From positions 744,001-808,000 of the forward strand of contig QAYZ01000016.1 in assembly GCA_003054655.1 (NCBI GenBank): DNA of 64,000 nucleotides, in the 5' to 3' direction. Position 1 is the first letter of the stretch. Each line of letters begins with the position of its first letter. The notes under the pieces are model-generated. The model was not told the DNA's origin and searched no databases. It saw nothing but the letters and a program-made list of their open reading frames with translations. The translations under genes and the position numbers were made by a program. Source of the DNA: Spartobacteria bacterium LR76. Lineage in GTDB: Bacteria; Verrucomicrobiota; Verrucomicrobiia; Chthoniobacterales; Terrimicrobiaceae. This document shows, piece after piece, positions 38,050-41,166 of the stretch.

Positions 38050-38562
38050 TTACTCCTTCACCTTCACGAGGGAGTCCTTGATGGGGCGGCCTGCGAGTTT
38101 GGCGGCGTAGACGGCGAAGGGCTGGTCGATGAGGTCTTCCGGCTGGTCGCCGCCGAGGGTCCACCAACTGCTGTTCGCCGTGACGAGGGCGGAGCCGACG
38201 AGCTTGCCGTCGCGGTAGAGCGGGAGCGAGACTTTCACGCGATCCGCCTTGCCCGACCATTCCGTGGCGCGGTCTTCCCAATGCAGGAGCTGGGGTTTGA
38301 CGACATAGCCGCCGGGGGCCGCCGTGGTGACGACGGAGGAGCCGGGGTAGTATGGAATGAGCGCCGCCGTGAGCTTGCCCGCTACCACGCCGCCGGAGCC
38401 GGGGAAGTTGTCGGATTCAAACGTGGCGTCGGCGGGCTTCAGCACCGCGATCTGCGTCCCGGCGGGCACCGTGGCGGGAATCTGGACGGCGAGTTCGCGC
38501 TGCGAGACATAGCAGCCGGAAAGCAAAGAAACACAAAGAAGACCAAGGATCGCGGAACGCAT
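38050..38562 (-). CDS. Lipoprotein, DUF4823-like
   Basis: A 170-residue lipoprotein with a textbook lipobox (ILGLLCVSLLSGC, Cys17). The mature domain contains LAVQIPATVPAGTQIAVLKP and LLHWEDRATEWSGKADRVKV, which resembles DUF4823 proteins and also SH3-fold lipoproteins. Probably outer-membrane-anchored and facing the periplasm. Function unknown. It ends near the downstream PD-(D/E)XK-like gene and begins before the palindromic repeat array. Confidence 0.75.
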   Translation of the reverse strand: MRSAILGLLCVSLLSGCYVSQRELAVQIPATVPAGTQIAVLKPADATFESDNFPGSGGVVAGKLTAALIPYYPGSSVVTTAAPGGYVVKPQLLHWEDRATEWSGKADRVKVSLPLYRDGKLVGSALVTANSSWWTLGGDQPEDLIDQPFAVYAAKLAGRPIKDSLVKVKE

Positions 38563-38702
38563 GGCCCCCGGGATAAGCTAAGCCAGGCGCGTGGTCAATG
38601 CGGGGCTTGGCGCTCGGCGCGAATCCGTTTTCTCCTGCCAGCACCCGCTAGGCTCTCAGGATTTTTTGTTTTTACAAAAAGGCCCCTCCACACCACCCCT
38701 GT

Positions 38703-38764
38703 GATTTCGTTTCCCTCGTTTCCACCCTAGGGAAGGAAACGAGGAAACGAAGCTTTGACCATGG
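38703..38764. repeat. Palindromic repeat A, copy 1
   Basis: A 62-bp unit starting GATTTCGTTTCC and ending TTTGACCATGG. Its arms (CGTTTCC and CTCGTTTCC against GGAAACGAG and GAAACG) form a hairpin of about 18 bp around ACCCTAGGGA. Nearly identical to copy 2; in the opposite orientation to copy 3, judged by which arm carries the extra base. Confidence 0.85.
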
Positions 38765-38766
38765 GG

Positions 38767-38843
38767 GGAGAGTGTAAACTTTGGTATTTCTTTTATTCAG
38801 AGAGGACGAGCGAGGGTGTATCCCCTCGCCCTGGCCCCGGTAA
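38767..38843. repeat. Repeat B, copy 1
   Basis: A 77-bp unit containing GTGTAAACTTTGGTATTTC, TTTTATTCAG and a small hairpin GCGAGGG-TGTATC-CCCTCGC. It precedes palindrome A copy 2 directly and recurs at 39010-39086 with few changes. Confidence 0.85.
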
Positions 38844-38905
38844 GATTTCGTTTCCTTCGTTTCCACCCTAGGGAGGGAAACGAGGAAACGAAACTTTGAC
38901 CATGG
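38844..38905. repeat. Palindromic repeat A, copy 2
   Basis: A 62-bp unit matching copy 1 from GATTTCG to CCATGG, with a hairpin loop ACCCTAGGGA. It follows repeat B copy 1 without a gap. Confidence 0.85.
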
Positions 38906-39009
38906 CGGGAGAGCTTCTGCGGCCAGAGGGCGCGGTTGGATTCTCTGGCTTTCGGGCCAGTTGCTAGAGGGTAAACCATGCTTTGCCGTGGTGATGTGCT
39001 CCGACCCGG

Positions 39010-39086
39010 GGAGGGTGTAAACTTTGGTATTTCTTTTATTCAGTGAGGGAGAGCGAGGGAGTATCCCCTCGCCCTGGCCCCGGTAC
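39010..39086. repeat. Repeat B, copy 2
   Basis: Second 77-bp B unit, 243 bp after the first, again containing the GTGTAAACTTTGG core and the GCGAGGG/CCCTCGC-type hairpin (one arm base changed). Immediately followed by palindrome A copy 3. Confidence 0.85.
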
Positions 39087-39137
39087 GATTTCGTTTCCTC
39101 GTTTCCTCCCTATAGGTGGAAACGAGGGAAACGAGAT
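39087..39137. repeat. Palindromic repeat A, copy 3 (inverted form)
   Basis: About 50 bp, GATTTCGTTTCC to GGGAAACGAG. The extra base is on the right arm rather than the left, so its complement matches copy 1 best. It ends 7 bp from the stop codon of the helicase gene and may also serve as its terminator. Confidence 0.8.
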
Positions 39138-39143
39138 TTCCGA

Positions 39144-40217
39144 CTAGCGGAGGAAGTATTCGCGACCGCGTTTGCCGAGCCATCCGTCGGCGATGGCGCG
39201 CTGGGCCATCTTGGAGATGGTTCCTTTGGACACGCCCATCTCGCGGGCGATGTCCTCGGCGCTGGTGAGGCCGCAGGCGATCCATTCGCGTAACGTCTCC
39301 AGACCCGAGGAGGCTATGGCTTTCACCTCGACGACGCCGGATTCCAGCGTCTGGAAAGTCCATTCGTACGGGCTTTGCTCGCGGCGGCTGTTGCGGTCTT
39401 TCGTGAACTCGGAGCGGAAGGCTGCTCCGTCGCGCTGTTCGTCGTTCACGGCGTCCAGCCGGATGACCCAGAAGGCGGCGTCTTCGCGGCGGGAGGTGCC
39501 TCGCATGGTTTCCTTGTTGCGGCCCGAGTGGTGGACGACGACCACGGCGATGCGGTGGCGGCGCAGGGTGAGGAGCCAGCCGAGGACGGATTCCCAATCG
39601 TCGGCGTCGTTTTCCTTCATGCCGGAGAAGAGGCACGAGAGGTTGTCGAGGAAGACGATGCCGATGCCCTGGGCGAGGAGGCGGCCGGTGAGGGCGCGCT
39701 GCGCGGCGGGGGTGGCGAGGTTGAGCACTTCGCCGGTGAAGTGAAAGAGCTCCTCGTGGTTGAGCACGATAAGCTCCCTGCTCTCGCCCATGCCGCCGAT
39801 GCGCGCGTCGAGCGCCTCGCAGGGCATCTCGCCATCCACGTAGAGCACGCGGCGCGGGGCCGTCGCCGTCCAGGGGCCAAAGGCGCGGCCATTCGCCACG
39901 GCGGTCGCCAGCCCGAGGGCGAACCACGTCTTGCCTAATCCGCGCGGGGCGTAGATGAACCCGAGGTCACCCTCCATGAACCAATCGCCGAGCACGGGCT
40001 GGCGGGACGGGATTTCGTGCGCCCGGTGGTCGGTGGAATCGCGCATGCCCACGGTGATGGCCTCGCTGAGCGCGGTCTCGCGGGCGGCCTCACGGTCGGC
40101 GGGGAGGTCGCGAGCAGGGTCCGGCGCGGCGGGCGCGTCCCCGGCGGCGCGGGCGGTGTCGGCTTGCTGGGATTTCATGAAGTCGGTGAAGATGTTCCAG
40201 TTGTTGGCGAAGTTCAT
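39144..40217 (-). CDS. RepA-like AAA ATPase / hexameric helicase
   Basis: A 357-residue RecA-fold ATPase of the RepA/AAA_25 type: Walker A YAPRGLGKTW near residue 90, a Glu motif VDGEMP, Walker B IGIVFLDNLS, and a sensor VVVHHSGR. A C-terminal helix-turn-helix (TSAEDIAREMGVSKGTISKM) would bind DNA. Plasmid and satellite replicons use such helicases for origin melting. It is last of a three-gene minus-strand set with a primase-like protein and a zinc-finger protein, and lies beside a palindromic repeat array that could be an origin or termination region. The gap to the upstream gene is 37 bp. Confidence 0.85.
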   Translation of the reverse strand: MNFANNWNIFTDFMKSQQADTARAAGDAPAAPDPARDLPADREAARETALSEAITVGMRDSTDHRAHEIPSRQPVLGDWFMEGDLGFIYAPRGLGKTWFALGLATAVANGRAFGPWTATAPRRVLYVDGEMPCEALDARIGGMGESRELIVLNHEELFHFTGEVLNLATPAAQRALTGRLLAQGIGIVFLDNLSCLFSGMKENDADDWESVLGWLLTLRRHRIAVVVVHHSGRNKETMRGTSRREDAAFWVIRLDAVNDEQRDGAAFRSEFTKDRNSRREQSPYEWTFQTLESGVVEVKAIASSGLETLREWIACGLTSAEDIAREMGVSKGTISKMAQRAIADGWLGKRGREYFLR

Positions 40218-40254: not shown

Positions 40255-41166
40255 TCAGACTTGAGGCCGGGGGGCCGGGTTGAAGTAATAGACGTATTGA
40301 CGGTTCCCGCTGTCGCGGAGGCCGCCGGGGATGCGGACAAACTGCGAGCGCGTCCAGGTGGCGCGATCCGCGCCGAGGCTCACGGCGTAGCGCATGAAGG
40401 CATGCATGTCGGCCTCGGGCCGCCCGGCGCAGAGATACCACCCGTGGAGCGACCTGCGGCCGCTGTGCACGACGAGGACGAGCGGGGAGAAAAGGGCGAG
40501 GTGCGCGAGGATGGCGGCCTGCTCGTCGGGCGCGCCGCCATCCTGCTCGATGATGAGGTGCTGGCGCGGCCCGGTATTGGCCAGCGTGTGCTCGCTCTCG
40601 CGGCCATCCTGGGTGAGTCCCGTGCGGCTCGTCATGGCCGAGGGCACCATGAGCGCCAGCCCGGCCAGCCGCCCGCGCCAGTCGGAGCGGGGCCGCGTGG
40701 CAAAGACGGAGCTGCTGCGCCCGCAGCACAGGAGCGGATCGCCGGGAAAGAGCGTGTCGACGACGGTCTCGGCCTGCGACTCGCCCTCGGGCAGGCGTAT
40801 GGGCGAGGTTTCCCACAGGTCCGCGAGGGTATACCCGGCATTCTCCGCCAGCACGGTCGAGCGGAGGGCGGCATTCACCTCGGGCCACAGCGAGGCGGCG
40901 GGGCGCACGGCGGAGGCTCCGCCCTCGAGGCCGGGCTGCCACGCCACCTTGCGCGAGTTTTCCACCGCACGGCGTATCTCCTGCTCCGTCACCACGCGCC
41001 CGCATCCGGCCACGGCGGCGCGCAACAGCTCGACGATCTCATGCTCCGTGCGGTAGGCGTGGAGCACGCGGGCGAGGCGGAAGAGGTAGAGATTCACCCC
41101 CTGCCCCGCGCGGGGCGGAGCGGCGAGGAGGTCGCGCACGAAGCGCGGAAGCTGCTCGCCCGTCAT
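40255..41166 (-). CDS. Primase-like replication protein
   Basis: A 303-residue protein starting at ATG 41166 (MTGEQLPRFVRDLL), overlapping the upstream stop by ATGA. The C-terminal half contains LVLVVHSGRRSLHGWYLC, GADRATWTRSQFVRIPGG and RQYVYYFNP. These resemble the RepB/AEP-type primase domain seen in verrucomicrobial plasmid and prophage-like elements. The N-terminal half (helical, with EQEIRRAVENSRKV) may be a PriCT-like helper. It pairs with the RepA-like helicase. The family assignment is from remembered motif patterns and is moderately certain. Confidence 0.7.
   Translation of the reverse strand: MTGEQLPRFVRDLLAAPPRAGQGVNLYLFRLARVLHAYRTEHEIVELLRAAVAGCGRVVTEQEIRRAVENSRKVAWQPGLEGGASAVRPAASLWPEVNAALRSTVLAENAGYTLADLWETSPIRLPEGESQAETVVDTLFPGDPLLCCGRSSSVFATRPRSDWRGRLAGLALMVPSAMTSRTGLTQDGRESEHTLANTGPRQHLIIEQDGGAPDEQAAILAHLALFSPLVLVVHSGRRSLHGWYLCAGRPEADMHAFMRYAVSLGADRATWTRSQFVRIPGGLRDSGNRQYVYYFNPAPRPQV

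Follow-up and report, generated by a model that had tools for sequence, protein, structure and literature searches.

The repeat array directly behind the RepA-like helicase gene is probably an iteron-type replication origin that belongs to the adjoining primase–helicase module and is read by the winged helix-turn-helix (HTH) of RepA. Three properties, shown computationally, form the basis of this assignment: RepA has the fold of RecA and RSF1010 RepA, it ends in a C-terminal winged HTH, and the arrays found 3′ of its homologues vary with this HTH. The window, that is, the whole stretch of 64,000 nt analysed here, corresponds to G000:C11:744001–808000 in a genome of 4.75 Mb and 16 contigs.

The gap behind the helicase gene is taken up by three palindromes (A) and a 79-bp unit (B) present twice, all assigned to the minus strand. 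Palindromes A1 (38703–38752) and A2 (38844–38893) share the centre CCCTAGGG, and A3 (39087–39138), which lies about 6 bp past the repA stop codon (39144–39146), has the centre CCTATAGG. B unit 1 (38765–38843) contains a short GC hairpin and an AT-rich stretch (38772–38799), and a second AT-rich stretch (39015–39042) is found in B unit 2 (39008–39086); both stretches, which carry no strand assignment, are candidate unwinding elements. B and A together form a direct duplication of 132 nt, with 82% identity between the copies. These coordinates agree with the unit order given in the earlier note (A, B-A, spacer, B-A) and with its statement that the array abuts the helicase stop. A feature that the note overlooked is that in every arm of A the 8-bp word GGAAACGA stands twice in direct orientation, which amounts to four iterons per palindrome and 12 in the array. 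The exact heptamer GAAACGA occurs at 12 sites in the 500 bp from the repA stop, with spacings of 8–9, 20 and 8–9 bp inside each palindrome. By comparison, shuffled sequences contain at most 5 copies of a single 7-mer, and the 177 background windows of the locus at most 6; the array has the multiple short repeats beside the initiator gene that are expected of an iteron origin.

Folded as DNA, the three A palindromes form hairpins of about 18–20 bp with energies of −16.8, −17.5 and −17.3 kcal/mol (z about −5.9; none of 200 shuffles is equally good), in line with the hairpins of about 18 bp noticed earlier. When A3 is aligned to A1 in inverted form, 88% of positions agree, versus 61% in the 70-nt direct register, confirming that the third copy is inverted in form. 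A hairpin had also been described in B; it is present, with 9–11 bp, but, at z −0.5 and −1.5, is ordinary given its composition. The highest AT content of any 30-bp window in the array is 73%, located in B unit 2, a value that 10% of background windows match. The sole Rfam match, mir-4716, reaches 27 bits where the gathering score is 76, and we therefore consider it a chance match and reject a structured RNA.

The repA gene (39144–40217, minus strand) encodes a 357-residue helicase of the AAA_25 family (PF13481, E 3e-29) with a C-terminal winged HTH at approximately residues 305–356. In the AlphaFold model (mean pLDDT 81.8), the C terminus is predicted to run H-H-H-strand-strand. Foldseek returns 1olo, 1nlf and 1g8y as top PDB matches, with TM scores of 0.67–0.70 by target length; by E-value, the closest solved folds are the RSF1010 RepA helicase and then RecA, so that the modelled fold would place the protein in the RSF1010 RepA family. 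Among cultured phages, nothing matches the RepA of the window. Upstream of repA lies a primase-like gene (40255–41166, minus strand), tentatively of the archaeo-eukaryotic primase type, an assignment suggested by the motifs HSG...LHGW and SQFVR.P.G, which are conserved in four homologues. The protein matches no Pfam or PHROG family, and a profile search against the PDB returned nothing. Its AlphaFold model is of low confidence (mean pLDDT 51.9) and was left out of the assignment.

A second repA paralogue is syntenic in two congeners (G000:C1:333306–334238, L034; G001:C73:23764–24771, L036). It is not followed by a GGAAACGA array, and the repeats in its 3′ flank resemble CAGAACATRGGTAACAC.

On its far side, the array is flanked by DUF4823, NERD, IS3-like transposase, HNH, Abi_alpha and DUF3825 genes, and the segment 32545–37361 has the appearance of a defence-like island (DUF3825, Abi_alpha, HNH, IS3-type transposase and NERD genes). 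We recognised no structural phage genes in the subset of neighbouring ORFs that was scanned, and the module appears to be situated outside any recognisable prophage, as a chromosomal locus.

We gathered RepA homologues from 97 relatives, 384 genomes of the class and 58 IMG/VR loci. A scan of the viral contigs with a single RepA sequence found nothing, and the 58 viral loci were obtained with an alignment query; it should be noted that the genomes are largely metagenome-derived and that the viral contigs are fragments. Iteron arrays are present 3′ of the RepA stops, with a word that differs from family to family, and the same arrangement of a repeat cluster behind a phage-like replication gene is seen in dozens of virus contigs. 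At 35 of 68 loci, the 300-bp window of highest repeat density is found no farther than 150 bp from the repA stop, where 2.5 such loci would be expected (p 3e-32), and the arrays usually start at most about 30 bp behind the stop. Each comprises 5 to 12 sites spread across 150–400 bp. At L040, L060, L063, L064 and L113, palindromes of four iterons with a spacing close to 8-20-8 are found again. Between neighbouring iterons on the same strand, distances of 7–9 and 10–12 bp are the most frequent, and smaller maxima lie at about 22 and 33 bp. AT-rich stretches are uneven across the phage arrays. Downstream of the array, L038 has a gene for a terminase small subunit and L060 one for a large subunit, an arrangement known from phages. 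Some observations count against an origin: tandem iterons, typical of the phage arrays, are missing from the window array, which has its palindrome tripled; approximately 24 of the 62 homologues with an HTH lack a clear array on their 3′ side; and the GC skew of six phage contigs shows no consistent switch at the array. No strong 3′ array was seen behind the distant helicases of the cultured phages Courthouse, Mahdia, mu1/6 and CRP-810. In one viral contig (L095:6850–7350), CGGGACA is repeated densely, with 10 copies in 500 bp, close to where a long helicase-like ORF ends.

The repeat word tends to change together with the DNA-reading tail of RepA, as far as sequence comparison can indicate. 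TCTTGCA is paired with the tail 'DYQVSR', TGGGACA with 'SKSK', CGCAACA with 'NKSN/HKST' and GGAAACGA with 'SKGT'. Among 38 dereplicated array-bearing loci, a partial Mantel test relates the iteron to the HTH, given the helicase core (r 0.43, p 0.0005), and does not relate it to the core, given the HTH (r −0.06, p 0.81); further dereplication leaves the iteron–HTH partial r at 0.45. Control windows correlate as well, with partial r 0.21 (p 0.002) inside repA, 700 bp before the stop, and 0.13 (−1200), 0.03 and 0.11 (+1000) elsewhere, indicating that part of the HTH signal is due to relatedness or composition; the informative part is the excess of correlation at the array over these windows. Arrays accompany 38 of 62 HTH-bearing loci and none of the 7 HTH-less loci (Fisher p 0.002). 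We assigned HTH status by inspecting the tails, which were cut by pattern, and set aside L076, where the count comes from a tandem repeat of 12 bp situated 355 bp downstream; if L076 is included, p is 0.038.

Synteny of the repA locus extends over three congeneric species, G000 (the genome of the window), G001 and G002. The RepA proteins are 69–78% identical with dN/dS of 0.30–0.57, indicating that they are constrained but evolve fast. The iteron linked to repA differs by species, with GGAAACGA in G000, GCAATGAA in G001 and TGAACGAA in G002, and just 50–58% similarity between the repA arrays of the latter two. In these two species, two arrays of the same orientation flank a single ORF after repA (L007:7218–8263; L142:11563–13364), and this ORF appears to differ between them.

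The three genomes also contain orphan arrays, which lack a repA gene, at two other conserved chromosomal loci, an observation that counts against the origin reading. At the HU locus, in the gap between HU-like and nucleoside hydrolase genes (G000:C13:658616–659666, L008; G001:C21:82964–84901; G002:C2:3040874–3041909), there are 3, 4 and 3 GGAAACGA palindromes in G000, G001 and G002, respectively. Since these palindromes stay GGAAACGA in all three congeners, we rejected the rule that orphan arrays follow the repA motif of their own species. Locus I (G000:C10:596702–599329, L138; G001:C46:37576–39728, L139; G002:C2:117083–119072, L180) carries iteron arrays of about 130 bp in the order isomerase, array, TPR gene, array, membrane gene, array(s), with 3, 4 and 4 arrays in G000, G001 and G002, all in a single orientation and several starting 10 to 45 bp past a stop codon. 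Positions 1 and 4 are conserved (81–93%); position 2 is 89% alike between G000 and G001 and resembles position 1 in G002. The alternation of arrays with small genes at locus I is reminiscent of repeat-separated cassettes.

Ectopic lambda origins are known to arrest lambda (PMC4488673), and by analogy the orphan arrays could be decoys, or else relics. The same role might be extended to the window, whose locus in G000 would then be a decayed or decoy phage origin that titrates the RepA of incoming phages. The lack of an integrase near repA, the defence-like genes in the neighbourhood and the retention of orphan arrays with more than one iteron type per genome at conserved loci are consistent with this idea, but RepA and the upstream gene are intact and the dN/dS of RepA speaks for constraint. 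Since, in addition, the array matches the type of its own RepA, a pure decoy is not needed at the window locus, and we regard this explanation as rather unlikely.

It is quite improbable that RepA or its HTH binds the array as an operator, regulating the next operon without starting replication. The link between HTH and iteron shows binding at most, and arrays precede phage genes such as terminase; however, the number of sites and the length of the arrays are far above those of a typical operator, and 38400–39400 contains no sigma-70-like promoter.

The earlier note had considered a REP/MITE-like element besides an origin, and had proposed that dispersed units would indicate the former and units unique to RepA-like neighbours the latter. 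The entire 441-bp array occurs once in the genome, and only A-like palindromes recur, on contig C13. The pattern GAAACGA-N0-3-AAACGA has two clusters in the genome, the window and C13:658616–659666, and a sequence model of the arrays finds three matches at locus I in G000; orphan arrays were sought with patterns and this one model, whose E-values are rough. In relatives beyond the genus, GGAAACGA matches are at repA loci or are single sites, which look like chance in the eight loci inspected. The units are thus not dispersed, and many copies scattered among unrelated genes, named in advance as evidence against an origin, were not found; nor are the units unique to RepA-like neighbours, given the orphan arrays. 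A dispersed palindrome family that landed beside repA by chance could account for the A-like palindromes at the HU locus of all three congeners and for the arrays at locus I. Nevertheless, there are few copies at just three conserved loci per genome, with no empty sites seen, and the association with repA spans many families and viruses, with a sequence that follows the RepA HTH. The restriction of the GGAAACGA pair to two clusters shows that the array is not REP-like, and we rejected a REP/MITE identity, which we rate as very improbable, for its low copy number and its association with repA.

Packaging (cos/pac) and transcription termination, two further options of the earlier note, are most improbable as functions of the array, and so is partition (parS-like). 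The terminase genes behind the arrays of L038 and L060, the parS repeats 3′ of repA in mycobacterial prophages (PMC7157519) and the strong A hairpins speak for such a site; against it, the arrays vary with the HTH of RepA, neither parAB nor a terminase gene was recognised beside the window array among the ORFs examined, and we rejected a terminator because no T-run was found.

For the candidate origin, we propose a mechanism in which RepA would bind GGAAACGA through its winged HTH, with copies placed 8 to 9 bp apart in the palindrome arms and, in phages, 10 to 12 bp apart on tandem iterons. Several bound copies could then assemble the helicase ring, the AT-rich stretch in B would melt, RepA would unwind the DNA and the upstream primase-like protein may prime synthesis.

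The elements of this system are partly known from other replicons; as proposed, it would operate in the manner of the PICI/SaPI pri-rep-ori and of pRN1, but with a helicase of RepA/RecA fold. RSF1010 combines a hexameric RepA helicase fold with a separate primase-like gene, and its oriV has iterons and hairpins. Its RepA is about 20% identical to the window protein and is not known to have a C-terminal winged HTH, the iterons being read by a separate RepC. In the pri-rep-ori modules of PICIs and SaPIs, a primase gene precedes the initiator-helicase gene, and the origin, the function of which has been tested, follows immediately 3′ of rep, with short iterons, an AT-rich stretch and sometimes terS afterwards (PMC6092414). 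The window has the same gene order with the candidate origin 3′ of rep, the primase assignment being tentative. Unlike these islands, which have two iteron sets around one AT-rich region, it has palindromic four-iteron units, its helicase is of the RepA/RecA type (AAA_25), and no PICI regulatory genes were seen. Moreover, no phage integrase (PF00589) is found near repA, the nearest match on the contig being about 261 kb away, and for this reason we do not file the module as a PICI. The replicons of pRN1 and phage BIP-1 combine primase, helicase and winged HTH, and their replication gene is followed immediately 3′ by a large stem-loop, of 100 nt and essential in pRN1; in these replicons, however, the helicase is of SF3 type in one fused protein, and no iteron array is described as origin (PMC4234260). 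PrimQH-type primases of mobile elements also bring together primase, RepA/DnaB-type helicase and winged helix, whereas the primase-like and helicase genes of the window are separate; in the parts of that description available to us, an origin array is not among the features (PMC5862659). Relative to these precedents, the new features are the type of helicase, palindromes of four iterons that are themselves repeated, and retention on the chromosome.

The position directly 3′ of AAA_25 helicase-HTH genes offers a route, from sequence only, to candidate origins in uncultured phages, and the paired HTH tails and iteron words are material for learning how an initiator reads DNA. The primase–helicase module is of phage type and is kept here as a chromosomal locus in synteny across three congeners. 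Speculatively, and with considerable doubt, the genus may have domesticated a phage-type primase–helicase replicon whose HTH and origin iterons turn over together from species to species, and the orphan arrays may be secondary origins that respond to RepA or heritable decoys against phages. Their conservation within one genus raises the question of whether captured phage origins serve as decoys or are used by the host.
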